A stretch of 64,000 nucleotides of DNA, from contig JAHHHU010000003.1 in the NCBI GenBank assembly GCA_019359175.1, positions 62,001-126,000 on the forward strand, in the 5' to 3' direction. The notes beneath the pieces were generated by a model. That model ran no database searches. It had not been told where the DNA came from and was given only the letters and a program-made list of their open reading frames with translations. Both the position numbers and the translations under genes were made by a program. Positions 17,521-61,342 of the stretch are shown in pieces (the first letter of the stretch is position 1; each line of letters opens with the position of its first letter). The DNA comes from Phormidium tanganyikae FI6-MK23 (GTDB lineage: Bacteria > Cyanobacteriota > Cyanobacteriia > Leptolyngbyales > Leptolyngbyaceae).

Positions 17521-18495
17521 TTATCGCACAGTTCCATACGTCACACCAAGCTGTTTAAGCCATTTGCGGTATGCCAAAGAAGCTCGATCGCTGGGTAAAT
17601 GAAATTCCATCTGCGGATCAAGCGGGAGGCGTTTCGGATTGTGCGATTCTAAGTTCGCGACATCTTGCAAAACAACAGTATCTTGAAACGCTACCAAATC
17701 GGCTTCGGGAATGTCATGGGCATAGTTCAACGCGCCCCACATCCAGCCGATACATTCTTCTTCAGAAACGGGAGTCACAAAGTACAGCAAAATCATCGTT
17801 TGTCCATCCGATCGCTGTTTTCGCAATGCGACTACCAAGGGTCTAAGTGTCCAATAGTCATAGTTCGCGATTCTGCCTATGCCGGTTCCATCGGGGTCAG
17901 GCTGCCAGATTTGAATATTTTTCAGATAGATGCCTGTGTCGATCGACATCACTTCATAGTCTTCGATCACAGGTTGTTCCGGTACGCCCAAGATGCCCGC
18001 ATGAACAAACGGCAGATGTGCCACATCGAGAAAATTCTCGATCGCTCTAAGTCCACTACAGCGAAATCGATGCCCACCGCTCAGATAGCTGCGATAGCTC
18101 GGCTCATCCCATTCCGGGAACGGTGCAACTTCAGTCTGAGGATTGCCCAGCGAAACAAAGATCACGCCATACCGTTCGACGATCGTAAAAGTCTTAGTAC
18201 AAGCTTGCTTCGGTGCAACATAGTTCGGATGTGCAGGAACTTTCACACATTGTCCCGTCACATCAAATGCTAAACCGTGATACGGACACACCAGCGTATC
18301 TGCTTCAACGGTTCCAGTCGAAAGCTTCACGCTGCGATGAGGACATCGATCGAGCCATGCCATCACCGTCGTATTTTCTCCCCGCCATAAGACCAAATCG
18401 GTTTCAAACAATCGAATCGATCTCACTGTTCCAGCTTGGATCTCGCTCGATCGTGCAACCGGATACCAATCATTCAGCAACACAGCATCCATCAA
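17521..18495 (-). CDS. Rieske 2Fe-2S non-heme iron oxygenase
   Basis: The 324-aa protein has the Rieske cluster motif RCPHRSVKLSTG (Cys, His ~50) and CPYHGLAFD (Cys, His ~70). The mononuclear iron site is DVAHLPFVH (Asp, His, His; ~156-164). This is the alpha-subunit layout of VanA/PaO-like ring-hydroxylating oxygenases, here without a membrane tail. It needs an electron donor that is not encoded nearby. Substrate unknown: candidates include a tetrapyrrole or carotenoid, or tailoring of a secondary metabolite. Its ATG overlaps the stop of the phosphopantetheinyl transferase gene (4 bases), the last step of a four-gene operon. Confidence 0.88.
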   Translation of the reverse strand: MMDAVLLNDWYPVARSSEIQAGTVRSIRLFETDLVLWRGENTTVMAWLDRCPHRSVKLSTGTVEADTLVCPYHGLAFDVTGQCVKVPAHPNYVAPKQACTKTFTIVERYGVIFVSLGNPQTEVAPFPEWDEPSYRSYLSGGHRFRCSGLRAIENFLDVAHLPFVHAGILGVPEQPVIEDYEVMSIDTGIYLKNIQIWQPDPDGTGIGRIANYDYWTLRPLVVALRKQRSDGQTMILLYFVTPVSEEECIGWMWGALNYAHDIPEADLVAFQDTVVLQDVANLESHNPKRLPLDPQMEFHLPSDRASLAYRKWLKQLGVTYGTVR

Positions 18496-19172
18496 ATCTG
18501 CCCCAGAAAGTAACTCAAATTTAGCTCAAGACAATCCTGCTCAATTACAATCGCGCCTGCAAATTGATCATTAATCGATAGTTCTTGAAGTTTCCAATTC
18601 TGCGATCGAGCTTCAACGGGAATTGTTTTCAAACACGCTCGATCGATTTCTAAGTCTTTTAGCTTTGAAAGTCCCGTACCTGTTGCCTTTAAGAAAGCTT
18701 CTTTGCACGTCCAATACTGAAAAAATAAATCGGGCTGTGCTTGAATCGTTCGAGCTTCGGAAGGAAGGAAGAACCGCTGAACTAAGCCTTCTAGCTGCTC
18801 AACGACTCGAACTTGTTCGATGTCAATCCCGATTGCGCGATCGCGTGTCACTGCATACAAAGCTAAATGCTGTGAGTGCGCCAAATTAAACTGAATCGCT
18901 GACTCTTTCAGAAACGGCTTTCCATACGAACCATAGTGAAATTCTAAACACTCCGGGTCAGTGTGCAAATAACGAGCAAGCAGCGATCGCAAAAATCCCC
19001 GTCCCGCAATAAAGCGCTGCCGATGTTGATCAAACTTAAATCGATCGGCTCTCGATCGTTCATCAATTGAAAGAAGCTCAAACGGGAATGTGATCGCATC
19101 TAAGTTAACTAGCCAAACATGAACATCCGATTCGCCCAAGGTCAAATCTTTCGGGGAATTCTGCCATTTCAT
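18492..19172 (-). CDS. 4'-Phosphopantetheinyl transferase, Sfp/HetI type
   Basis: The 226-aa protein contains the Sfp-family motifs: GIDIEQVRVVEQ (Mg-binding Asp/Glu near 111-115) and FQYWTCKEAFLKATGTGL (WxxKEA, near 153). The N-terminal half has RGFLRSLLARYL and FNLAHSQHLALYAV. It transfers phosphopantetheine from CoA to a Ser on carrier proteins (fatty-acid ACP, NRPS/PKS carriers). Cyanobacteria usually rely on a single Sfp/HetI-type enzyme, so it may activate the two PCP domains of the NRPS at 52608-61342. It sits in a 4-base-overlap operon between a membrane protein and the Rieske oxygenase. Confidence 0.9.
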   Translation of the reverse strand: MKWQNSPKDLTLGESDVHVWLVNLDAITFPFELLSIDERSRADRFKFDQHRQRFIAGRGFLRSLLARYLHTDPECLEFHYGSYGKPFLKESAIQFNLAHSQHLALYAVTRDRAIGIDIEQVRVVEQLEGLVQRFFLPSEARTIQAQPDLFFQYWTCKEAFLKATGTGLSKLKDLEIDRACLKTIPVEARSQNWKLQELSINDQFAGAIVIEQDCLELNLSYFLGQI

Positions 19173-46463: not shown

Positions 46464-49400
46464 ATGTATCAAAATCTCGAATTTTTGCCTTTATTGATTG
46501 CCCAGGTTGATCTTCAGCCTGGAATTGTGGCGATCGAGGAATCTTCTCTGTTCTCGATTCCACAGTTCATCCTGGCATTGTTTGCTGGGTTGGTGATGGC
46601 GTTTGCATTTCAATTTCTGTTTACAAATTTAGCAGTTGCGTTTGTTGCAACGCCTGGAACGCCTGTCGATGATTCAGATGGTGCAGGCGAAACCGTTCGC
46701 AGTATTGAAACAAAGTTAGGGCTATTTGTATTAGCGAGTGTGTCGATCGCGCTTTTTATTGCAACTTTCTTAGCGGTGAAATTGAGCTTGGTCGGTGGCG
46801 GAGTGTTAGGCGCAATTGTAGGCGTTGTGATTTGGTCTACTTATTTCACGCTGTTAGTTTGGTTTGGTTCTAGTGCAATTGGTTCATTGTTAGGATCATT
46901 CATTAGCAGTGCAACTTCTGGGATTCAGGGCATGATGGGCGCGGCGACGGCGGCAGTGGGCGCAAATGTCGCAAGAAAGCAAACGGTTGCGACTGCTGAA
47001 GACATTGCAGCCGTGGTCAGACAAGAGTTGACTTCTGGAATCAATCCCGACGCGATTCGAGAAACACTCACAAGCTCGATCGCAAATTTACCGCTTCCAA
47101 AACTTGATGTCGATGATGTTAGCAAACAGTTTGAAAAGATCCTCAAAAATGTGGATTTAGAAGGAATTGCAGACAATGATTTGCTGAAAAACTTAAATCG
47201 AGACGCGATCGTCAATTTAATTGGCGATCGGACAAACCTGTCGAAGGAGGAAGTGAATCAAATTGCGGATCGACTCGAATCTGCGGTAAAGAATGTTCGT
47301 AAGGGCGCGAGTGCTTCTGATCAACTCACCGAATTGGTGAAAACTGCAACGCCAGAACAGTTGCAGTCGGGCGATGTCTACAATCAGCTTTCAGATTTAG
47401 TGCGATCGAACATTGGTAAATCTCAGCCTTCTTTGTCGGACTTGGCGCTAGAAGCGGGTTTAGGCTCACTGCTGGCAGTCGTGCAAAATCGAGTTGACCT
47501 TTCTGATCTCGATGTCGAGAAGATTTCAGGACAACTGCAAAAGCTGGTAGGGCAAGTTTCTGCACCTCAAGAGAAAGACACTCAGCCGAATGTTTCAACT
47601 CCCCGACGCAACGTAATTAAAGCCGATGTTGAGTCGTTTATCTTAGGTGCGCTTCCGTGGTACTTCAATCGGTTTTCTCTGCCGCAAGAGCTCCAAGAAA
47701 TCATCTATGATCCTCAAGCAGACGCATCCGAAGTTCGTTGGCAGCTTGAAGAACTGAATTTAGGCTACTTTACGGGATTGTTAGCACAACGGGGCGATCT
47801 GAGTGTTGGCGTAGTTCAAGAGTCCGCCCGCATCATGGAAACGGTTCTCAATGATGTTCTAGAGACTGTCCGCAAAGCTGAAGCCGCTGAACAAAGAGAC
47901 GCGCTACAAGGACAAATTGAAAACTATCTACGATCGACGGATAAATCAAAGTTAGGTGAATCCGAAATTCAACAACAGCTTCAAAGCATTCTCGAAGATT
48001 CAGAAACAAATTTAGAGACTCTACAAAGCTATCTCGGTAGTTTGGATCAACCAACGTTGCAAAATCTATTGCAACAACGAAGCGACTTTAGCACTGAAGA
48101 AGCCTCTGATCTTGCAAGTCGAATCAGCGGCGTGAGAGAACAAACGCTTCAATCGATCCAATCCTTGCGCGATCAGGCTCAAACTCGCGCGAATGAGCTA
48201 CGTCAACAAGTCGAAAACTATCTCCGCAATACTAATCGCGAAGAGTTGAACCCAGACGAGATCGAGCGAGAAATCCGATTGTTGTTTGATGATCCTCAAG
48301 CTGGATTGTCGGCTGTACGATCGCGTTTATCTCAGTTCGATCGAGAAACTTTGGTGCAACTCCTGAGTCAACGCAATGACTTAGACGAGGAGCAAATCAA
48401 TCGCATCTTAGATCAGATTGAATCCATTCGATCGAGCATTCTAAATGCACCTCGCCAACTGATCGATCGTGCAAAACAACAGTACGACGACACCACTCAA
48501 ACGATCGCGGATTATCTTCGTAGAACGAACCTCGAAGAACTCGATCCTGATGCCATTCAAGAAGAGCTAACCACCTTACTCTATGATCCAAAGTTAGGCA
48601 CATCAGCGTTACGGCGACGGCTCTCACAGTTCGATCGAGAAACTTTGGTGAAGTTGCTCGGTCAACGGGACGACCTCACCGAAGCCCAAGTGAATCAAAC
48701 AATCGATCAAGTTCAAACTGCGATCCGCGATGTTGCAAAAGCACCTCGGCGTGCAGTCAGTCGCGTTCAGAAGCAAGCCTTAAATTTTGAAGCCAGCTTA
48801 GAGAACTACCTCAAAAACACAAACAAAGAGGAACTTAATCCAGACGGCATCAAGCGAGACTTGCAACTATTGTTAAATGATCCACGAGCAGGAGTCAGCA
48901 GCTTAGGCGATCGACTCTCACACCTCGATCGAGAATCATTGATTGCGCTATTGTCACAGCGAGAAGATCTTTCTGAAGCAGAAGCAACCCAAATTGTTGA
49001 TCAGGTCTTATCCGTCCGCGATCGTATTGCTGAACAAGCCCAACAACTGCAACAGCGATTACAGTCCGTTGTCGATGGTGTTCAAGACCAGATCCGAACT
49101 TACCTAGACTCGCTCGATCGTCCTGAACTCAGCTACGAAGGCATCAAAAACGACTTCACCAAGCTGTTTAATGATCCTCAAGCGGGTGCAGAAGCGTTGA
49201 GAGCGAGACTCAGCCAAGTCGATCGCGGCACTTTGATCGCGCTGATTAGCTCAAATCCGAACATTTCGGAAGCACAGGCAAACCGGATTGTCGATCAGGT
49301 CGAATCAGCGAGAGAAGGTGTTCTTGGACAAGCTGAATATGTTCAACAAGAAACACAGCGTCGCCTAAGTCAGATCAAACATCAGGCACAAAAACAAGCG

Positions 49401-49517
49401 ATCGAAGCTCAGAAGATGGCAGCGGGCGCGGCTTGGTGGCTGTTTGGAACTGCATTTACTTCATTGATCGCATCTGCGATCGCTGGATTTCTTGCCGTTC
49501 GGGTTGACCTTTTCTAA
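46464..49517 (+). CDS. Large membrane protein with eight ~98-residue repeats
   Basis: The 1017-aa protein starts after a strong AAGGAGG site. Three N-terminal membrane helices (~28-60, ~87-110, ~112-150) and one C-terminal helix (~985-1012) flank a long helical region. In this region a module recurs with its core (LLxQRxDLSEEEV-like) near residues 247, 334, 433, 530, 628, 726, 825 and 922, period ~98; the last six are most regular. Each has an acidic NPDEIxRxxxLLxDPxAG-type helix, an RLSxxDRExL helix and an IxDQxE helix. No family is recognised. It may tether or shape membranes under stress; this is inference. Confidence 0.85.
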   Translation: MYQNLEFLPLLIAQVDLQPGIVAIEESSLFSIPQFILALFAGLVMAFAFQFLFTNLAVAFVATPGTPVDDSDGAGETVRSIETKLGLFVLASVSIALFIATFLAVKLSLVGGGVLGAIVGVVIWSTYFTLLVWFGSSAIGSLLGSFISSATSGIQGMMGAATAAVGANVARKQTVATAEDIAAVVRQELTSGINPDAIRETLTSSIANLPLPKLDVDDVSKQFEKILKNVDLEGIADNDLLKNLNRDAIVNLIGDRTNLSKEEVNQIADRLESAVKNVRKGASASDQLTELVKTATPEQLQSGDVYNQLSDLVRSNIGKSQPSLSDLALEAGLGSLLAVVQNRVDLSDLDVEKISGQLQKLVGQVSAPQEKDTQPNVSTPRRNVIKADVESFILGALPWYFNRFSLPQELQEIIYDPQADASEVRWQLEELNLGYFTGLLAQRGDLSVGVVQESARIMETVLNDVLETVRKAEAAEQRDALQGQIENYLRSTDKSKLGESEIQQQLQSILEDSETNLETLQSYLGSLDQPTLQNLLQQRSDFSTEEASDLASRISGVREQTLQSIQSLRDQAQTRANELRQQVENYLRNTNREELNPDEIEREIRLLFDDPQAGLSAVRSRLSQFDRETLVQLLSQRNDLDEEQINRILDQIESIRSSILNAPRQLIDRAKQQYDDTTQTIADYLRRTNLEELDPDAIQEELTTLLYDPKLGTSALRRRLSQFDRETLVKLLGQRDDLTEAQVNQTIDQVQTAIRDVAKAPRRAVSRVQKQALNFEASLENYLKNTNKEELNPDGIKRDLQLLLNDPRAGVSSLGDRLSHLDRESLIALLSQREDLSEAEATQIVDQVLSVRDRIAEQAQQLQQRLQSVVDGVQDQIRTYLDSLDRPELSYEGIKNDFTKLFNDPQAGAEALRARLSQVDRGTLIALISSNPNISEAQANRIVDQVESAREGVLGQAEYVQQETQRRLSQIKHQAQKQAIEAQKMAAGAAWWLFGTAFTSLIASAIAGFLAVRVDLF

Positions 49518-51536: not shown

Positions 51537-52613
51537 ATGGCGAACTCTAGCAAACCCACTACTAAAGCATTAAGCATCCGCAAGAATAGTATTGCAAGCG
51601 TTTTCGATCTCGGAAAGATGATCGCGAAGGGTTCTGTTGGTTTAATTGGACGCTTGAGCAAAAGGGCTGGAGGCGCTTTAGATTTTGTTGGAAATATTCC
51701 CTTGCTGCGAAATCCGGTCGTGAGACGGTTTGCAGGAGTACTAAAATTAGATTGGCTAATCGGAATTAGTAGCCAAGTTGACTTAGAAAAAGCGACAGAA
51801 GCAGCAAGAAAACTACAACGCCAATTCCCAAACGAAACTCCCGAACAAATTGCCCATCGCTTGATTGTCCGAAAAGCCGTTCAAGCAGGTGGAACAGGCT
51901 TTGTTACTAGCATTCTTCCCGGATTCGCTACTGCATTTTTAGCGCTTGACCTTGCTGCAACAACCGCACTTCAAACCGCATTAGTGTATGAAATTGCCGC
52001 TGCTTATGGCTTAGATTTGCGTGATTCAGAGCGCAAAGGGGAAGTACTAGCGATCTTTGGTTTAGCACTAGGAGGCAGCAATGCCCTAAAAGCAGGGTTG
52101 AAATTCTTGCGTAATATTCCATTTGCAGGAGCCGCGATCGGGGCAAGCACAAACGCAACTATTCTCTACTCATTAGGCTATGCTGCCAGCCGATTCTATG
52201 AAGCAAAACTCCACGCAGCAAGCGATGTTCCACCAACCGAAGCGCTGGAGAAAATCCACCAGCAGAGCGAAGACTATCTAAATCTCGCGATCGCACAACA
52301 AGCGATCGTCGATCAGATTCTCGCTCATATGCTGCTTGCAAGCTATCCCGAAAAAACTTGGGAATCAATTCTACCCGAACTAAAATCGTTACAGCTAGAA
52401 CCTTCTTCACTCAAAACAATCGAAAACAATCTACGATCGCCTCAATCCCTGAGTAGTCTACTCGATCAGCTTAACTGGGATTTTGCAGCTCCGTTACTTG
52501 CCCAATGTCGTCGGATTGCTCAAAGCAAAGACAGCATTTCACCACAAGAAGCTGAGATTTTAACTGCGATCGAGCAGCAGTGTAACACTCAAGCCGCAGC
52601 CGGACTTTTATGA
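51537..52613 (+). CDS. EcsC family protein
   Basis: 358 aa from the ATG at 51537 (a TTG ten codons earlier is in frame). EcsC-type pattern: IAHRLIVRKAVQAGGTGFVT, ILPGFATAFLALDLAATTAL, YEIAAAYGLDLRDSERKGEVL and FAGAAIGASTNATILYSLGYAASRFY. Hydrophobic helices suggest membrane association, although EcsC was first described beside an ABC transporter. The C-terminal ~130 residues are helical and specific. Role unknown. Its stop overlaps the convergent NRPS stop by 6 bases. Confidence 0.8.
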   Translation: MANSSKPTTKALSIRKNSIASVFDLGKMIAKGSVGLIGRLSKRAGGALDFVGNIPLLRNPVVRRFAGVLKLDWLIGISSQVDLEKATEAARKLQRQFPNETPEQIAHRLIVRKAVQAGGTGFVTSILPGFATAFLALDLAATTALQTALVYEIAAAYGLDLRDSERKGEVLAIFGLALGGSNALKAGLKFLRNIPFAGAAIGASTNATILYSLGYAASRFYEAKLHAASDVPPTEALEKIHQQSEDYLNLAIAQQAIVDQILAHMLLASYPEKTWESILPELKSLQLEPSSLKTIENNLRSPQSLSSLLDQLNWDFAAPLLAQCRRIAQSKDSISPQEAEILTAIEQQCNTQAAAGLL

Positions 52614-55600
52614 GAGATATTGTTCAAGTTGATCAGCCAAGATTTCAACGTTAGGCTGTTTCAGCAAAGAGAGATGATTGCCTGAAACTTGATGCAGTTG
52701 AAGATCGCGTGCTAGAGTGCTCCATCCCAATGTGGGATCGCCTGCTATGGATGCAGGTTGTTCAGTCGCTTTGAACACGGTAATGCGGTCTGGATAGAAT
52801 TGCGGCACGTACCGATAGGCGGCTTGAGCATTAGCATAGACAATTCGCAGCATTGGCGCGATCGCGGATTCATCTAAGAGCCGTAGTCGAGATTCTTCGG
52901 GAATGAGGTGTGCAATTTTAGACCATTGCCAACGCGAAAATCCAGAGTTCAGGGGCTTCAATCGATTAATGGCAAGGGCGCTATAGTCTAGCAAAAACGG
53001 AAGAGTAGACCAGAGAGCCGTTCCTATTAGAAACTTAAGACTTTGATAGAAAGAAGGTTTGTTGCAAGGTGCAGGCGTGTCTAGAATTGCTAAAAGCTCT
53101 ACTTTTTGCCCTGCTTGTGTAAGTTGTTGCGCCATTTCAAAAGCAACTAATCCGCCAAAAGACCAACCGCCCAAAAAGTAAGGACCATGAGGTTGAAGCG
53201 TTTGAATTGCTTTGATGTAGTAAGCTGCGATCGCTTCGATTCGTTTCAGGGGTGGCGATTTTCCGTCTAATCCTAAAGGTTGGAGTCCATAAAAACTGCG
53301 ATCGCTCTTTAAATGATTCGCAAGTTCTAGGTAAGGAAATACGACACCGAACATCGGATGCACACAAAAGAAAGGCTGATTGCTTATACCGATTGTTAAA
53401 GGAACAAGTGGCGACCAAGACTCATGAGTAATGCTTGTCTTTTGTTTAGGTTCTACTGAGTGTAGAGTTGTCGATCGTGTACGGCGGTAAGCAGCGCGAT
53501 CGAGCCGAACTAGTGGGGGAATTTTTGGGCTTAAAGCACTATTTTGTAAGGTATCGAGAATGGGAGCAAGTTGCGCGATCGTAGGTGCTTCAAACACATT
53601 TTTCAAAGGTAGCTCAAGTCCAAAAGCATCACGAACGCGCGAAGTCATTTGCGTTGCTAACAAAGAATGTCCACCTAGCTCAAAGAAGTTATCGTGAATC
53701 GTCACTTGCTTGAGTCTTAGGAGGTCTTTCCAAATTTCTAGAAGCGTGATTTCTGTTGAAGTTGTAGTGTCACGGCTTGGAGACTGTGCGATCGCTGGAA
53801 TTGCATCTTCACTGAACAATGGAAGCGCACGTCGATCGATTTTGCCATTTGCAGTTAAAGGAAGCGTTTCTAGGGGCACAAAAGCAAAAGGGATCATATG
53901 ATTCGGCAAGGTCTGTCCTAGAAACTGACGCAGTTCAGGAACCAGTTGACGCGCGAATTGAGACTGAAGTGGATTGTTCGTGTAGTGTTGCCAAGATGAG
54001 TAGAATTGTTGGGAAGCAGGAAAACCAACACTTGCCTCAACGCCCTGCCGAATCAATAGAACGTCATAGCTGCCTGTATCAGTTTGAGCTGCCCAGGTGA
54101 TCTCTACGGTGTAAGGCAATGATGCTTCTAAATCCCACCACTCTTGAGGATCGATTGTAAATTCAGTAGACTCCTGCAATTTTGCTTGCATCTGTCCCAC
54201 TGTTTTTGGTGTTTCTCCCCTGTGCAACCAGATTGCAGTTTTGACAGCAGCATTTACGCGACTGTTTGCCACGTTTGTAATCAGCAATCGTTCTGGCTCA
54301 GTCTCAATTAGATGCTTGTGGATCTCCTCGACATCAGTTGGGTTGAGGTTCCAGTTGTAGTGTTGAGAGGGGGGACTTGCGTCGCTAGAGCTATCTTCGA
54401 GATGTAATAAAACGTTGTAGCGAAACTGTGTCATTTCATTCTGATGATGCCCGCGTGAAAGTCTAATTTGCACTTGTCGAATCTGAGGAAACTTACGCTG
54501 TAATGCGTAAAAGAACAATGGCTCGATCGCAAGTTCTGGTTCTTCAAACTGCGATCGATTCACGAGTTGCTGGAGCGCAGTTCGTTCCATCCCTGCATCT
54601 GCTTGAGAAAACTGCATCCAGCTATGAAAGGCAGTTAGTAACGACAAATTTCGCACATCGCCTATAAATAGAACGCCGCCTGGTGCTAAGGTCTGGATCG
54701 CTCCCTCTAGTACCTGAAGCAAATAATCGACATTCGGGAAATACTGCACGATCGAGTTTAAAATCACAACATCAAACGATCCAGCATCAATACCCTCGAA
54801 ATCGGTCGCAATTCGATGTGATAGTTCAACTTGCGGCAGTGTTTCTAATTGATGCTGAATCGATGCCAAAGCAACTTTTGAAAAGTCTGTTCCTACATAT
54901 CTTTGGCAGTGAGGCGCGAGTTGGAACAGTAATAGCCCAGTGCCACAGCCAATTTCTAGCACTCGTTTTGGTTTCAGCGCCAGAATTTGCTGAACGCGAT
55001 CGCGAATCCATTCTTGCATTTGCTCTGAGGGAATCGGCTGTCCAGTGTAGCTACTATTCCAGCCTGTAATGTTGAATTGTGGATTTGGGATCAGAGCTTG
55101 GTAGGTTTGGTTGTAGAGCGTTTGCCAATGTTGAATTTGTTGGGTTTGCAGTGATCGTAGAGGATGCTCGAAATATTGCCGTTCTAAGCTAAAGTAAGCA
55201 ATCAATCTCATCTCGCTGGATGTTTCTCCAGAAGTGATAATCGCTGCATCTCGGATTGCTGAATGGCTTTGCAGGGTTGCCTCGATTTCGCCTAGCTCCA
55301 CCCGAAAACCTCGGATTTTGATTTGATCATCAACGCGACCGAGAAATTCAATCGAGCCATCCGCGCGGTAACAAGCTCGATCTCCAGTTTTATATAAAAC
55401 TGAGTGTTCGGTGTGAATAAACCGTTCTGCTGTCAATTCTGGGCGATTGAGATAACCACGAGCCAATCCTTCACCCCCAATGTACAGTTCACCTGGAATT
55501 CCTATAGGAACAGGATTGAAGTGAGCATCGAGAAGATGAGCTTGGGTATTGATGATCGGATGACCGATTGACAATGGATGAACACCTGGATGAAGTTCGG

Positions 55601-58097
55601 CAACCGTTGACCAGATTGTTGTTTCTGTCGGGCCATAAGCATTAAAAAAATGTCGATCGACTGCCCAGCGATCGACGATTTGACGAGAGCAAGCTTCTCC
55701 ACCCGTAATCAAGACTTGAAGTGCAGGAAGCTCGATCGAAGGTAATACCGCTAGCACTGCCGGAGTGAGCAAAGCATGAGTGATAGCCTTCTCTTGCAGA
55801 AATTGTAGCAGTGCGATTCCGGGTAGCTGGGCCGTCTTGGGTGGAATGTACAACGTCCCTCCAGAGCCAAACGCCAGCGCAATCTCGAAAATCGAAGCAT
55901 CAAAACTCAGAGAGCTAAATTGCAGAATTCGACTCGTGCGCGATAGATGAAAAACTTTCTGCTGTGCTTTAACCACATTGCACAGACCGCGATGTGACAA
56001 AAGCACTCCTTTGGGTATGCCTGTGGAACCAGAGGTATAGATCACATAAGCAAGCTGATCAGGAGCGGAGGGAGCCATTTCGCAAGGTTCTAAGCTCCCC
56101 GGTAAGGGCTGATCTAAACATAGAATCTTTGCTTGTGATGCAGGTAGAGAGTCAACGAGCCAAGACTGCGTGAGCAAAATGGCGACCTGGGTATCACTCA
56201 ACATGAATTGGAGTCGATTGCGGGGATAGTTCGGATCGAGTGGTACATAAGCTCCGCCAGCTTTAAGAATTCCGAGAATTCCAACTACCATATCGATAGA
56301 GCGATCGACACACAATCCCACCAAAGAATCTGCTTGGACTCCCATTCTCCTGAGTGTGTTCGCGAGATGATCGGCTCGGTGATTGAGTTCTTTGTATGTC
56401 AATGATTCTTGTTCTGAAACAAGCGCGATCGCATTCGGTTCACGCTGCACCTGTGCCTCAAAAACTTGATGAAAACAACGATCGCTTTGTTCTAGATCAT
56501 CAGTTTGATTCCACGCTAGAATTTGCTGATGTTCTGTCTGTGTGAGCAGTGATAGATTTGACAGCCGATCGTTAGGATTTTCAACAATGCTTTCGAGCAA
56601 GGTTTGAAAATGCCCAACTAAGCGAGCGATTCTATCTCGATCGAACAAATCTGTACTATAGGAAATGAAGCCGCTTAACCCTTCCTGCGATTGCCACAAG
56701 CTCCGTAGTCCGTGCGTCGGCTCCCACAAATGAACTTCTAGATCAAATCGAGTACTGCCAAACTCTAGCGGTGCAGGTTCTAGCATCAAACCGGGTAGCT
56801 TTAAGGGCTGCATCGGAGCATTCTGGAGCGCAAATGCAACTTGAAACAAAGGATTACGGCTGAGATCGCGTTCTGGGTCTAACTCCTCGACTAGCTTTTC
56901 AAACGGCAAATCCTGATGCTCATAAGCTTCTAAAGCAACATTGCGAACTTGCTCTAGCAATTCGCGAAAAGTTGGATCACCAGATAGATTCGATCGCATA
57001 ACCAAACTATTCACAAAGAAGCCGATCAATCCTTCTACTTCACTGCGATGACGGTTTGCAATGGGAATCCCGATCGCAATGTCTTCTTGCGCTGTGTACC
57101 GATGTAGCAACGTCTGAAACGCTGCAATCAGAGTCATAAAGAGCGATGTTCCCGACTGTTGACTCAAGGCTTCTAGTCGCTGGGTAAGAATTGGAGAAAG
57201 TTGCAGCGGATAGGTTGCGCCGCGAAACGTCTGAGTCGTAAGACGAGGGCGATCGGTCGGAAGATTTAGCACAGGCAAATCTTGTAATTGCTTGCGCCAG
57301 TATGATAGTTGTTTGTCTAAAATTTCGTCCTGCAACCAATCGCGCTGCCAGCAAGCAAAATCTGTGTATTGAATCGGTAGCGGTGGCAATTGAGGCGATC
57401 GTGCTTCAACAAATGCACTATAGAAATGAGCAAGTTCTCGGATCAGTACACCCAATGACCAACCATCTGCAACAATGTGGTGCATGGTTAATAGTAGCAG
57501 TGCGTTAGCGGGATCGAATTGCAGTAATGTGACTCGCAGGAGGGAATCGCTTGTGAGATTGAATGGACGCTGTGCCTCGGTTGTAGAAAGCTGCTGGTTA
57601 ATCTGTCCGTGTGCTGCTGGCAAATTCACGATCGATAACTCAATTTTGCTATCAGGTTCAACAACTTGAACAGGTTTTCCATCAATCGTGGTAAATGTAG
57701 TGCGGAGTGTAGCATGACGACGCACAATCTCATCTAGAGATCGCTTTAATGCATTTTGATCGACTGTTCCACTCAATCGAATGGCAGCAGGAACATTGTA
57801 GAACGGATTGTCGGGTGCAAGCTGATACAGAAACCACAATCGCTGTTGAGCAAACGACAAAGGAAACACAGTTCTCTCAGTTCGCTGAACGATTGAGTCA
57901 GATGAAATCAAGTATGAAATGAGTTCAGTTTTGCGATCGACTAACTTCTGGCGCAATTCTGTTGTCAAAATTCCTTCTGGAGCGTTACAGCGCAACCGAA
58001 TTTCATCTAAAGCAGCATCGGGTTTGTGGTCGATCAAAATCTGGACATCTAAGCTTTTTAGATATGACACAAATTCAGCGATCGTTAGATTCGTCAT
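52608..58097 (-). CDS. NRPS: TubC dock-C-A(N-methyltransferase)-PCP-thioesterase
   Basis: 1829 aa. Order: TubC docking (~5-60), condensation (HHIVADGWS ~205), adenylation (AYVIYTSGSTGIPKG ~684; NAYGPTETT ~817; IRGFRVELGEIEATL ~924). A methyltransferase (VLEIGCGTGLLLFQLAPHC ~1044) is inserted before the last A motif (NGKIDRRALP ~1416). PCP follows (DNFFELGGHSLLATQ ~1467), then a type I thioesterase (GGWSFGGLVAFEMAQQL ~1644). The A-domain pocket reads by eye D-A-F-L-I-G-A-I-W-K, no code I recognise; the F and G suggest a hydrophobic residue. It would N-methylate, extend and release a peptide. Downstream partner of the next gene; they overlap by 4 bases. Confidence 0.93.
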   Translation of the reverse strand: MTNLTIAEFVSYLKSLDVQILIDHKPDAALDEIRLRCNAPEGILTTELRQKLVDRKTELISYLISSDSIVQRTERTVFPLSFAQQRLWFLYQLAPDNPFYNVPAAIRLSGTVDQNALKRSLDEIVRRHATLRTTFTTIDGKPVQVVEPDSKIELSIVNLPAAHGQINQQLSTTEAQRPFNLTSDSLLRVTLLQFDPANALLLLTMHHIVADGWSLGVLIRELAHFYSAFVEARSPQLPPLPIQYTDFACWQRDWLQDEILDKQLSYWRKQLQDLPVLNLPTDRPRLTTQTFRGATYPLQLSPILTQRLEALSQQSGTSLFMTLIAAFQTLLHRYTAQEDIAIGIPIANRHRSEVEGLIGFFVNSLVMRSNLSGDPTFRELLEQVRNVALEAYEHQDLPFEKLVEELDPERDLSRNPLFQVAFALQNAPMQPLKLPGLMLEPAPLEFGSTRFDLEVHLWEPTHGLRSLWQSQEGLSGFISYSTDLFDRDRIARLVGHFQTLLESIVENPNDRLSNLSLLTQTEHQQILAWNQTDDLEQSDRCFHQVFEAQVQREPNAIALVSEQESLTYKELNHRADHLANTLRRMGVQADSLVGLCVDRSIDMVVGILGILKAGGAYVPLDPNYPRNRLQFMLSDTQVAILLTQSWLVDSLPASQAKILCLDQPLPGSLEPCEMAPSAPDQLAYVIYTSGSTGIPKGVLLSHRGLCNVVKAQQKVFHLSRTSRILQFSSLSFDASIFEIALAFGSGGTLYIPPKTAQLPGIALLQFLQEKAITHALLTPAVLAVLPSIELPALQVLITGGEACSRQIVDRWAVDRHFFNAYGPTETTIWSTVAELHPGVHPLSIGHPIINTQAHLLDAHFNPVPIGIPGELYIGGEGLARGYLNRPELTAERFIHTEHSVLYKTGDRACYRADGSIEFLGRVDDQIKIRGFRVELGEIEATLQSHSAIRDAAIITSGETSSEMRLIAYFSLERQYFEHPLRSLQTQQIQHWQTLYNQTYQALIPNPQFNITGWNSSYTGQPIPSEQMQEWIRDRVQQILALKPKRVLEIGCGTGLLLFQLAPHCQRYVGTDFSKVALASIQHQLETLPQVELSHRIATDFEGIDAGSFDVVILNSIVQYFPNVDYLLQVLEGAIQTLAPGGVLFIGDVRNLSLLTAFHSWMQFSQADAGMERTALQQLVNRSQFEEPELAIEPLFFYALQRKFPQIRQVQIRLSRGHHQNEMTQFRYNVLLHLEDSSSDASPPSQHYNWNLNPTDVEEIHKHLIETEPERLLITNVANSRVNAAVKTAIWLHRGETPKTVGQMQAKLQESTEFTIDPQEWWDLEASLPYTVEITWAAQTDTGSYDVLLIRQGVEASVGFPASQQFYSSWQHYTNNPLQSQFARQLVPELRQFLGQTLPNHMIPFAFVPLETLPLTANGKIDRRALPLFSEDAIPAIAQSPSRDTTTSTEITLLEIWKDLLRLKQVTIHDNFFELGGHSLLATQMTSRVRDAFGLELPLKNVFEAPTIAQLAPILDTLQNSALSPKIPPLVRLDRAAYRRTRSTTLHSVEPKQKTSITHESWSPLVPLTIGISNQPFFCVHPMFGVVFPYLELANHLKSDRSFYGLQPLGLDGKSPPLKRIEAIAAYYIKAIQTLQPHGPYFLGGWSFGGLVAFEMAQQLTQAGQKVELLAILDTPAPCNKPSFYQSLKFLIGTALWSTLPFLLDYSALAINRLKPLNSGFSRWQWSKIAHLIPEESRLRLLDESAIAPMLRIVYANAQAAYRYVPQFYPDRITVFKATEQPASIAGDPTLGWSTLARDLQLHQVSGNHLSLLKQPNVEILADQLEQYLS

Positions 58098-61000
58098 AGT
58101 TCAATTTCCTCACGTCGTTCTAATTCTGGAGAACGATTGTTTCGCCTTAAAGCTTCAATCTGTTGTGCTAATTCTGCGATCGTTGGTGTTTCAAACACAG
58201 ATCGCAGTGGTAATTCAACTTGACAGCGATCGCGGATACGTGAGACGAATTGAGTCGCTAATAGAGAATGCCCACCGAGTTCAAAGAAATTGTCCTGAAT
58301 ACCGATGGAATTGCGTCCGAGCAAATGGCTCCAAAGCTCAGTCAGCAATGCCTCTAAAGAAGTTGTCGGAGCAAGAGGACGGCTCTCCTTCACAGCGTTC
58401 CGGTTCGGATGGGGCAAAGCTTTCTGATCGACCTTACCATTTGCAGTGAGCGGAAGAGTGTCCACAATGACAAAAGCAGCAGGCAGCATATAAATCGGTA
58501 GCTTAGGTTTGAGAAACGATCGCAATTCTCGTTCAGTCGGTTTCTCAAAGGTTTGAGGAACAATGTAGGCAATTAATTGTGGATTATTTTCCGTCTCGCG
58601 CACTACAACGACGGCTGTTTGCACCTTTGAAGATTGTGCCAACACTGCTTCAATTTCACCTAACTCTACCCGAAAGCCTCGAATTTTGACTTGATCATCG
58701 ACTCGACCTAAGAATTCGAGATTGCCATCAGGACGATAAAGCGCTCGATCGCCAGTTTGATACAGAACTAATTTTTTAGTCTGAATAAACTTTTCTGCGG
58801 TCAATTCTGGGCGGTTCAAATAGCCTCGTGCTAATCCATCACCTCCTAGATAAACCTCACCGCTCACACCTGCGGGAACTGGATTCAGATTTGCATCAAA
58901 TAGATAGACTTGAGTGTTATTAATTGCTCGACCAATCGGAATCGTTGTTGCGATCGCTGAAATATTCTGCACTTCATACCAAGTCGAAAATGTAGTATTC
59001 TCCGTCGGGCCATAGACGTGAATTAGATGCTGTGGCTTACCGTGTTGAATCAGCGATCGGACACATTCAACATTTGCCATCTCACCGCCAAACAGTAAGA
59101 ACTTAAGAGCTTGAAAGGCAGTTGGAATCTGACGAACGTATTGATTAAACAATGCTGTGGTGAGGAACAGAATGCTAATTTGCTGCTGCTGTAATTCGAT
59201 CGCGAAATCAGTCGGTGAAAGAGTTATCTCTCGATCAATCCCGATCAACTGAGCGCCATTCAGTAATGCGCCCCAGATCTCAAAGGTTGCAGCATCAAAG
59301 GCGAGATTTGCGACCTGTGCAATTCGATCGTTACAGTCTACCTGTACATAGTTTGTTGCACAAACGAGCCGGTTCACGCTCCGATGTGACACCATTACTC
59401 CTTTGGGTGTTCCAGTCGAACCAGAGGTATAGATGATGTACGCAAGCTGATCCGCTGTGCAAGGAATTGCTAGATTTTCATCTGACTCTTGAACGATCGC
59501 GCTCCATTCCTGTTCTAAGCAAATCACTTTAGTATTGTTTATCTGAACTAAATCTGCCCAATTCGCCTGAGTCAGAACGATCGCAATTCCAGCATCTTCT
59601 AACATAAAATGCAGCCGTTCTTGTGGATAGCTTGGATCAAGCGGTACATATGCACCTCCTGCTTTCAGCACCGCCAGCATTGCCGCGATCGCTTCAATTC
59701 CGCGTTCCAAACAGATTCCAACTGGCATTTCAGCACTGATTCCGCATCGCTGCAAGTACCGCGCCAGTTGATTACTCCCTTGATTTAAGGCTTCATAGGT
59801 GAAAGATTGATTGCCAAATCGAACTGCGATCGCAGTTGATCTTTGTCTAACCTGCGCTTCAAACAGCTCGTGAATACAAACAGTCGGATAGCTAGAGCAA
59901 TGCCTGCTCCACTGTTGTAATAATGCTTGTTGTTCTTGAACAGTTAACAATGATGATTCGGACAGGCGAGCTTCTGGATTTGCAACAATGCCTTCTAGTA
60001 GGGTTTGAAAATGCTGCCGTAATAGTGCGACCGTGGCTGAATCAAATAAATCCGTGTTGTAAACAATTACGCCCCGCAACCCATCTGACTGCTGCCAATT
60101 CTTCCCCCACAAGTTCCGAAAGTTATCTGCACACTTCCAAACATAGAGTTCTAAATTAAAGCGCGAAGTCTTTGTCTCTAAATCCACCGGACTCAGGACT
60201 AAGCCAGGTAACTTCAATTGTTCCATGGGTGTATTTTGCAGCGCAAAGACAACTTGAAAAAGTGGATTCTGCCCAAGGCTACGAACAGGCTGCAACTCTT
60301 CAACTAGCTTCTCAAACGGTAAATCTTGATGGGCATACGCCGCTAAAGTGACATCACGGACTCGATCTAATAAGTCTCGAAAGGTTGGATCGCCTGCCAA
60401 ATCTGTTCGCAGTACCAAGCTATTCACAAAGAAACCAATCAAACCTTCTAGCTCACTTTGATGGCGATTTGCAACCGGAGAACCGATCGCAATATCGGTC
60501 TGCCCAGTATAGCGATGTAATAATGTCTGAAACGCTGCCAGCAAAGTCATAAACAGCGTCACACCTGATTCTTGGCTTAACGCTTCTAGGTCATCTAACA
60601 GCGGTTGTGGAAGTTCTAAGAGTTGACTTGCGCCTTGATGGCTTGGTTGACCCAAGCGAGAGATGGAACTTGCTAAGTTTAGAACAGGCACATCTTTTAA
60701 CTGTTGCTTCCAGTAGCGCAACTGAGTATGCAGTACTTCACCCTGCAAATATTCGCGCTGCCAGTGAGCAAAATCCGCATACTGAATCGGTAACTCCGGC
60801 AATGCAGCAGGCTCACTTTTTGCTAACGCTGCATAGCCTTCACCCAACTCTCGAATGAGAACACCGCTCGACCATTCATCAAAAATAATGTGATGCAATG
60901 CGATCAGTAACAGATGCTCTGTATCTTGCAGCTGCCAAAGATGCGATCGCAATAATGCTTCAGTCCTTAAACAAAACGGTTGCTCAATCTCCTGCCAAAT

Positions 61001-61342
61001 TTGCCGTAATGCAGTATCTTCGCGAGTCCGAGCAGACAGCGATCGCAAATCAGTCGCTTTGAATGGAACTTGCGATCCTTGAGCAATCACCTGAAACAAT
61101 TGCCCATCAACCATATCAAAAGTCGTTCTCAGAACTTCGTGACGGCGAACGATCGCTTGAAGACTCTTTTGGAGATGCGATCGCGTTAAAGAACCTGTCA
61201 GCCGAAAGACTAGGGGAATGCTGTAAAGAGAAGTTCCGGGAAGCAGTTGTTCAACAAACCACAAGCGCTGTTGAGCAAATGAGGCTGGAAAAATAAAGAT
61301 ATCTTCTTCAAGCTGCCTTTGGTTCGGCTGATCTGCAATCAT
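58094..61342 (-). CDS. NRPS: C-A-PCP first module
   Basis: 1082 aa, one complete module: condensation (HHIIFDEWSSGV ~148), adenylation (AYIIYTSGSTGTPKG ~634; VYGPTENTTF ~776; IRGFRVELGEIEAVL ~882; NGKVDQKALP ~966) and PCP (DNFFELGGHSLLATQ ~1014). The tail SPELERREEIEL is acidic and suits docking to the TubC domain of the next protein. Pocket code by eye D-A-F-F-L-G-V-T-F-K, resembling branched-chain aliphatic (Ile/Val) codes. An N-terminal condensation domain on a first module often N-acylates the residue. It lies first in transcription order. Confidence 0.92.
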   Translation of the reverse strand: MIADQPNQRQLEEDIFIFPASFAQQRLWFVEQLLPGTSLYSIPLVFRLTGSLTRSHLQKSLQAIVRRHEVLRTTFDMVDGQLFQVIAQGSQVPFKATDLRSLSARTREDTALRQIWQEIEQPFCLRTEALLRSHLWQLQDTEHLLLIALHHIIFDEWSSGVLIRELGEGYAALAKSEPAALPELPIQYADFAHWQREYLQGEVLHTQLRYWKQQLKDVPVLNLASSISRLGQPSHQGASQLLELPQPLLDDLEALSQESGVTLFMTLLAAFQTLLHRYTGQTDIAIGSPVANRHQSELEGLIGFFVNSLVLRTDLAGDPTFRDLLDRVRDVTLAAYAHQDLPFEKLVEELQPVRSLGQNPLFQVVFALQNTPMEQLKLPGLVLSPVDLETKTSRFNLELYVWKCADNFRNLWGKNWQQSDGLRGVIVYNTDLFDSATVALLRQHFQTLLEGIVANPEARLSESSLLTVQEQQALLQQWSRHCSSYPTVCIHELFEAQVRQRSTAIAVRFGNQSFTYEALNQGSNQLARYLQRCGISAEMPVGICLERGIEAIAAMLAVLKAGGAYVPLDPSYPQERLHFMLEDAGIAIVLTQANWADLVQINNTKVICLEQEWSAIVQESDENLAIPCTADQLAYIIYTSGSTGTPKGVMVSHRSVNRLVCATNYVQVDCNDRIAQVANLAFDAATFEIWGALLNGAQLIGIDREITLSPTDFAIELQQQQISILFLTTALFNQYVRQIPTAFQALKFLLFGGEMANVECVRSLIQHGKPQHLIHVYGPTENTTFSTWYEVQNISAIATTIPIGRAINNTQVYLFDANLNPVPAGVSGEVYLGGDGLARGYLNRPELTAEKFIQTKKLVLYQTGDRALYRPDGNLEFLGRVDDQVKIRGFRVELGEIEAVLAQSSKVQTAVVVVRETENNPQLIAYIVPQTFEKPTERELRSFLKPKLPIYMLPAAFVIVDTLPLTANGKVDQKALPHPNRNAVKESRPLAPTTSLEALLTELWSHLLGRNSIGIQDNFFELGGHSLLATQFVSRIRDRCQVELPLRSVFETPTIAELAQQIEALRRNNRSPELERREEIEL

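Follow-up and report, generated by a model that had tools for sequence, protein, structure and literature searches.

Several described assembly lines come close to the one treated here. LtxA of the lyngbyatoxin pathway is reportedly a cyanobacterial two-module nonribosomal peptide synthetase (NRPS) with one N-methyltransferase (MT), placed in module 1, and with reductive release; the actinobacterial thaxtomin enzymes TxtA and TxtB are said to make an N-methylated product with two MT domains and no thioesterase (TE), the first subunit of the rhabdopeptide/xenortide lines reportedly carries an N-terminal condensation (C) domain, and the aeruginosin-type lines are said to make longer peptides with other modules and other adenylation (A) codes. 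The locus analyzed here lies in a stretch of 64,000 nucleotides of Phormidium tanganyikae FI6-MK23 (contig JAHHHU010000003.1, positions 62,001 to 126,000; the whole stretch is referred to as the window) and consists of two genes, P1 and P2, that encode a compact NRPS line of two modules. P1-P2 is an intact, conserved, widespread and well-defined orphan family of a known, ordinary kind of chemistry and mechanism; according to the domain trees, it is nested in a family of three-subunit lines and not of stand-alone origin.

A sequence-only reading of the window had described a C-A-PCP protein (PCP, peptidyl carrier protein) followed on one strand by a TubC-C-A(MT)-PCP-TE protein with a 4-base overlap, and no other synthase in the window. 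Open reading frames and Pfam matches confirm this arrangement, the parts of which are given below together with the carrier-priming candidate of the window.

58094-61342, minus strand: P1, C-A-PCP protein of 1082 aa with a putative C-terminal docking tail (open reading frame, Pfam)
59918-61291, minus strand: C1, elongation-like (LCL-like) condensation domain, HHIIFDE replacing HHxxxDG (Pfam, motif, tree)
58433-59863, minus strand: A1, pocket DAFFLGVTF(K), a code that published cyanobacterial lines use for Ile (Pfam, code)
58160-58348, minus strand: PCP1, DNFFELGGHSL (Pfam, motif)
58097-58117, minus strand: RREEIEL at the C-terminus of P1, a tail that putatively docks on the TubC-type domain of P2 (motif, analogy to PMC6195595)
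58094-58097, minus strand: ATGA overlap of P2 start and P1 stop (sequence)
52608-58097, minus strand: P2, TubC-C-A(MT)-PCP-TE protein of 1829 aa (open reading frame, Pfam)
57909-58082, minus strand: TubC-type N-terminal domain, putatively docking (PF18563)
56517-57875, minus strand: C2, elongation C domain, HHIVADG (Pfam, motif)
55449-56462, minus strand: A2 core, pocket DAFLIGAIW(K), in a clade with Phe-/Tyr-code A domains (Pfam, code, tree)
53988-55145, minus strand: N-methyltransferase domain inside A2, VLEIGCGTG (Pfam, motif)
53565-53744, minus strand: PCP2 (Pfam)
52623-53375, minus strand: TE, GGWSFGG (Pfam, motif)
18492-19172, minus strand: phosphopantetheinyl transferase, outside the cluster (sole PF01648 match in the genome)

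The start codon of P2 (ATG, 58097-58095) and the stop codon of P1 (TGA, 58096-58094) share the overlap. All Pfam matches of P1 (Condensation, AMP-binding, AMP-binding_C, PP-binding) and those of P2 to TubC_N, Condensation, AMP-binding, Methyltransf, PP-binding and Thioesterase are above cut-off; AMP-binding_C of P2 stays below it (22.4 versus 24.5 bits), because the MT insertion splits the C-terminal subdomain of A2. With C, A and PCP modules of intact motifs and a terminal TE, the line is a type I modular NRPS, and its reading as a pseudogene was rejected on the basis of the open frames, intact motifs and shared constraint. As the only PF01648 match of the genome, the phosphopantetheinyl transferase likely primes both PCPs.

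Compared with LtxA, the window line has its MT in module 2 and a TE. It likewise differs from TxtA/TxtB, two NRPS proteins that make a diketopiperazine (PMC7593251, PMC6001691), by one MT, a TE and its cyanobacterial origin. The likeness to the rhabdopeptide/xenortide line Kj12ABC, with its valine/N-methyl-valine chemistry, comprises single-module subunits, a TubC-like domain and a short tail (PMC6195595); in Kj12ABC, however, a terminal C domain releases onto an amine and product length varies, whereas the window line has a TE and a fixed two-module order. The cyanopeptolin/micropeptin and aeruginosin-type lines share the Ile code DAFFLGVTFK with A1, and TubC-like docking is named for the micropeptin and cyanopeptolin lines (PMC6195595), but cyanopeptolins are longer, and their lines differ in modules and A codes (PMC2533009).

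A contig scan across genomes returned 27 loci, namely 20 cyanobacterial family members with 64-74% best-segment identity (from Phormidesmis, Nodosilinea, Elainella, Pantanalinema, Oculatella, Leptolyngbya, Phormidium and other genera) and seven NRPSs of other phyla. A conserved cluster family, with near-fixed pocket codes, is supported by these loci. Within the taxonomic family of the source strain, the synthetase or its three-subunit cousins were present in 13 of 42 genomes (E 1e-295). In a draw of 386 genomes from the phylum, 42 passed the same threshold and 14 were counted as two-subunit family or three-subunit cousins; this count is a judgement from identity and fetched architecture, the remaining passing genomes being taken as other NRPSs. 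Rows at 39-54% identity were so classified in part after fetching (L070, L071, L073, L078) and in part unread, e.g. G274 (52%), and absence in this draw is less sure because two candidates per genome were scored for the synthetase and five for the hydrolase described below. Over 15 loci (105 pairs), mean pairwise identity amounted to 0.78 for C1, 0.81 for C2, 0.79 for the A1 core, 0.77 for the A2 core, 0.69 for MT and 0.76 for TE; the least conserved parts measured were the PCP-TE linker (0.52) and the linker before C2 (0.23). Gene neighbors mostly differ among the loci, with some shared by close relatives (L056/L062, L063/L077 and the Nodosilinea loci); the 42 neighbor stretches compared include two pairs from the same genome (L064/L099, L076/L077). 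Trees were based on 14 two-subunit loci; L025, L026, L033, L034, L037, L062, the fragments L027-L029, L031, L036, L038, L053, L076 and L077 and the cousin loci L072 and L099 were left out, and L055, L057 and L059, repeats of L023, L026 and L027, were excluded from trees and code counts. Broken copies also occur: L027 (= L059, one genome fetched twice) contains a broken two-subunit line with a hydrolase fragment beside it, and L072 (G207) a broken three-subunit line with an intact hydrolase frame.

Pocket codes were extracted by alignment to the window A domains; as a control, DVENAGVVT was returned for a cyanopeptolin-like protein (L070), matching OciB-A4 in PMC2533009. The A1 code DAFFLGVTF was present in 22 of 22 distinct two-subunit rows. 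Its extended form DAFFLGVTFK corresponds to Ile (also Val) in Planktothrix cyanopeptolins (PMC2533009) and to L-Ile or D-allo-Ile in suomilide, aeruginosin and pseudospumigin lines (PMC13122637); judged from the code, the substrate of A1 is probably L-Ile or a similar branched residue. For A2, 24 of the 26 two-subunit rows gave DAFLIGAIW and two DAFLVGAIW, while L031 and L036 yielded no code. In the FastTree analysis, A2 grouped with three DAFIIGAIW domains from cousin second subunits (99), within a clade (99) that also holds domains with what we take to be the Phe code (DAWTIAAVC) and the Tyr code (DASTIAAVC); because of this clade, the second residue (X) is probably aromatic or large hydrophobic. 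Neither DAFLIGAIW nor a matching dipeptide was found in the literature searched, including the available text of PMC2533009, PMC13122637, PMC6195595, PMC12184294, PMC11546977, PMC4247773 and PMC1894796, and four further codes of the cousin line were equally without match there; in this respect the description as a compact line of two modules with a single N-methylation and no recognized product stands. The family, its derivation and the hydrolase were not found described in the same literature, which cannot replace MIBiG.

The connection between the subunits is putatively provided by the C-terminus of P1 (REEIEL), which by analogy would dock on the TubC-type domain of P2, both parts being present as in the rhabdopeptide-type lines. 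In Kj12ABC, an intermolecular beta sheet joins such short tails to TubC-like domains; similar docking pairs are named for the micropeptin and cyanopeptolin lines (PMC6195595). Tails of the type [EDQ]-hydrophobic-[EDQ]-[LFV] were detected in 33 of 116 NRPS frames (two of the 33 being loci fetched twice), all 33 of them C-A-PCP proteins, and wherever it lay within the fetched stretch, the subunit following a tailed C-A-PCP protein began with a TubC-type domain.

The three-subunit cousin line, not found in the literature searched, is represented by L047-L052, L060, L061, L064-L066, L072, L074, L075 and L099. Its first subunit is a C-A-PCP protein (DAFFLGVTF in seven of nine rows, DAFFLGMTF and DAWFLGNVV in one each), its second a TubC-C-A-MT-PCP protein (Leu-type DAWFLGNxx or DAWFLGVTT in ten of 13 rows, DAFIIGAIW in three) and its third a C-A-PCP-TE protein (DAFTIAAVW/IW in 12 of 12 rows; the third subunit of L052 is a fragment without code). 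It resembles the window line in the P1 with, in most rows, the same Ile code, an acidic residue after HHxxxD (6/7) and a REE/RED-type tail, in the architecture of the second subunit, in a related TE and in the same hydrolase companion, but differs by the presence of the third subunit and by the mostly Leu-type second A domain. The subunits of a cousin line need not adjoin, since that of G102 is split across two contigs (P1 and P2 on C6, L099; P3 on C16, L064).

According to the trees, C1, C2, A, MT and TE of the window share common descent with the cousin line. C1 fell inside the clade that the first-subunit C domains of the cousins form (99/95; 100/96 with L049 and L052; L047 outside; IQ-TREE, 81 rows) and C2 adjoined the second subunit of L074 (99/98, IQ-TREE), whereas in the FastTree analyses the TE adjoined the third-subunit TE of L075 (96) and the MT adjoined L074 and L052 (98); L074 and L075 belong to the same genome (G004), as separate contigs. 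PCP2 was more similar to cousin second-subunit carriers (41-47 identical of 66-70, ten rows) than to third-subunit carriers (18-35 identical of 54-70, 11 rows). No separate C-A-PCP-TE third subunit was found among the C-domain matches of the draft genome, the TE being fused to P2. The second subunits of L049 and L052 are complete and lack a TE; a lack in L074 is not established because the contig end cuts this subunit. The simplest account, as far as sequence relationships tell, would be that the two-subunit form arose from the cousin line when the third C-A-PCP was lost and its TE became attached after PCP2.

With respect to accessory genes, the statement that no transporter or tailoring gene flanks the line was correct for the window but not for the family: the relatives link the synthetase to a membrane-anchored alpha/beta hydrolase of 371 aa with two hydrophobic N-terminal segments, the source genome counterpart of which (81% identical) is located outside the window on contig C75. 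Ser, Asp and His were conserved in 20 of 20 aligned copies, and family models gave generic matches only. A full-length copy was situated beside the synthetase in ten of the 42 stretches, compared with three for the next recurring neighbor, in changing arrangement: on the same strand downstream of the synthetase (L020, L022, L026; about 3 kb away in L024), divergent from P1 (L052) or from P2 (L051, L066), or between the subunits on the opposite strand (L060, L061, L072). The hydrolase is rare (10 of the 386 phylum-draw genomes at 1e-100). In the 42 genomes of the source taxonomic family, both partners were present in ten, the synthetase only in three (G013, G022, G028), the hydrolase only in two (G017, G032) and neither in 27; the corresponding numbers of the phylum draw were eight, six (G046, G049, G102, G114, G346, G420), two (G032, G414) and 370. 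This co-occurrence gave Fisher p values of 1e-5 and 1e-11, respectively, for genome counts that ignore relatedness, and of 0.0095 (19 genera) and 6e-7 (143 genera) when counted by genus, again uncorrected for relatedness. Because positive residues follow the second hydrophobic segment, the sequence suggests a cytoplasmic catalytic domain, and the enzyme probably acts on the product or a precursor at the inner membrane face. Orphan cyanobacterial families have been said to be limited to NRPS/PKS (polyketide synthase) genes without tailoring enzymes (PMC4247773); P1-P2 is an example of how a companion can go unnoticed when it is unlinked.

Based on these data, the following route is proposed. 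P1 would charge PCP1 with L-Ile or another branched residue like it and dock with its tail on P2, where A2 would load the second, probably aromatic or large hydrophobic residue and the inserted MT would N-methylate it; C2 would then couple Ile to the N-methyl residue, and the TE would release the product. A non-acylated product of two residues, in diketopiperazine or linear form, is assumed with moderate confidence. It would leave mainly as the N-methyl diketopiperazine cyclo(Ile-NMe-X), which is favored because N-methylation favors the cis amide and the Ile amine would then be free; in a rough ranking of forms, this one comes first, although held tentatively, followed by N-acyl-Ile-NMe-X as a somewhat weaker candidate and by the linear free dipeptide as an unlikely one. 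The ancestral line would have had three subunits (for Ile, an N-methyl residue, and an aromatic-type residue with TE) before it lost the third C-A-PCP and the TE came to lie behind PCP2, and the membrane-anchored hydrolase encoded on the other contig would act on product or precursor on the inner side of the membrane.

Several points weigh against this route. Diketopiperazines can form without a TE, and this domain may do no more than hydrolyze; the code of A2 had no published match in the searches, and residue X is read from the clade of one FastTree tree. The hydrolase was absent (1e-60) from nine of 18 genomes with two-subunit loci (L033 and L037 being left out of this check), which means that it is not obligatory; five of these nine are metagenome-assembled genomes, and two of the nine matches in the other genomes are fragments. 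In addition, the AlphaFold2 model of the hydrolase was poor (mean pLDDT 48.6). The conservation of C1 comes close to that of C2 (0.78 versus 0.81), and the genome encodes two proteins unlinked to the line, L017:1-2331 (on C77) and L018:1276-3618 (on C75), with long frames that give AMP-binding, carrier and (below cut-off) acyltransferase-3 matches.

The last two points also speak for the explanation that survives best beside the proposed route, a lipo-dipeptide, which appears possible but clearly less probable: C1 would acylate Ile from acyl-ACP (acyl carrier protein), acyl-CoA (coenzyme A) or an unlinked loader, giving N-acyl-Ile-NMe-X, from which the hydrolase might afterwards cleave the acyl group or swap it for another. 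HHxxxD is kept in all 20 distinct two-subunit P1 rows, which as well as the window read HHI[IV]FDEWS; the cousin P1 C domains have D[DE]W in six of seven cases (DG in L047), and all downstream C domains of both lines have DG. The glutamate need not abolish catalysis, since a dimodular A-PCP-C-A-PCP-TE protein of a Myxococcales metagenome-assembled genome (L041:7752-13760) has an HHxxxDE domain as its sole C domain. The motif was rejected as a mark of lipo-initiation, as it occurs in C domains behind an A-PCP module (L041 and, as A-PCP-C, L045 and L046). The conservation of C1 indicates that it is under constraint and not decaying, which disfavors an idle domain and leaves room for acylation. 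Against acylation stand the relationships of C1, which shares 247 of 450 positions (55%) with C2, ranks solved structures in parallel with it (bits for C1/C2: Txo2 303/362, TycC 255/293, CDA peptide synthetase I, presumably a starter C domain, 50/55) and groups with elongation C domains in the IQ-TREE analysis, the 81 rows of which held no reference Starter C domain. Starter C domains share little similarity with the remaining C domains of their own line (PMC1894796), a trait that C1 does not show; by sequence, it is unlikely to be a classical Starter C domain. Furthermore, of the eight AMP-binding places of the source genome three are NRPS A domains and the other five are unlinked to the line (acetyl-CoA synthetase L012, generic long-chain acyl ligase L016, O-succinylbenzoate-CoA ligase L019, L017 and L018). 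No acyl loading enzyme is linked to the line in the source genome or recurs beside the relatives in the 42 stretches. In consequence, the optional N-acylation by the first C domain that the sequence-only reading had entertained found no positive evidence, the constraint on C1 notwithstanding.

An iterative or oligomeric use of the line is quite improbable. Either the TE would condense dipeptides to a cyclic tetra- or hexapeptide or P1 would be reused as in rhabdopeptide-type single-module lines, for which Kj12ABC, with its single-module subunits, TubC-like docking, short tails and variable order and stoichiometry, provides a precedent (PMC6195595); P1 indeed begins with a C domain that could take a peptidyl donor. 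However, pocket codes and module order stay fixed throughout the family, and because Pfam detects no N-terminal docking domain on P1, there is no visible route by which it could receive a chain from P1 or P2. Least probable is a line continued in trans by a missing upstream loader or third subunit, as the scattered cousin subunits of G102 might allow: P2 already ends in a TE related to that of the cousin third subunit, and the draft genome (5.74 Mb, 77 contigs, 96.3% complete) has PF00668 matches in three places, which are P1, P2 and one C-A-PCP-TE protein on contig C11, so that the search found no further module for the line elsewhere. The C11 protein (C11:80729-84772, L004:10729-14772; single-module, 1347 aa) was rejected as a continuation due to its own TE and the unrelated code DLYDFSLVW.

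The line P1-P2 is flanked in the window by an EcsC-like gene downstream and by genes of an Fe-S aldo/keto reductase and a bifunctional nuclease upstream; neither a transporter nor a tailoring gene is among these neighbors, and the aldo/keto reductase was rejected as a tailoring candidate since it did not recur in the 42 stretches of relatives. A 1017-aa protein at 46464-49517 (plus strand) gave weak matches only, to bacterial DNA-binding and, below cut-off, to apolipoprotein. All five ketosynthase matches of the source genome lie outside the 64-kb window; three belong to a PKS on the 27.5-kb contig C38 (9973-21864; L007, L009, L010) with frames of 2398 and 2336 aa. Two genera of the source family contain a near-alike large NRPS cluster (L067, L068 in G026, G019) with a 2933-aa subunit and the codes DAWTIAAVC and DILQLGLIW.

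The fixed codes and wide distribution of the family imply that the product of one strain would annotate many genomes, and mining of the P1-P2 locus alone would miss the recurring membrane hydrolase. The nested two- and three-subunit forms suggest a natural shortening of an assembly line at the PCP-TE boundary. A still wider reading, which we regard as doubtful, would join both observations in a two-part system: the NRPS derived by module loss would make a dipeptide of Ile and an N-methyl-aromatic residue, acylated or cyclic at first, which a membrane-anchored hydrolase dedicated to it would mature, release or detoxify at the inner face in the manner of prodrug-processing hydrolases, the whole being an old, repeatedly rearranged cyanobacterial trait. 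If this reading were true, the three- and two-subunit forms would constitute a natural experiment in module loss with the TE kept.

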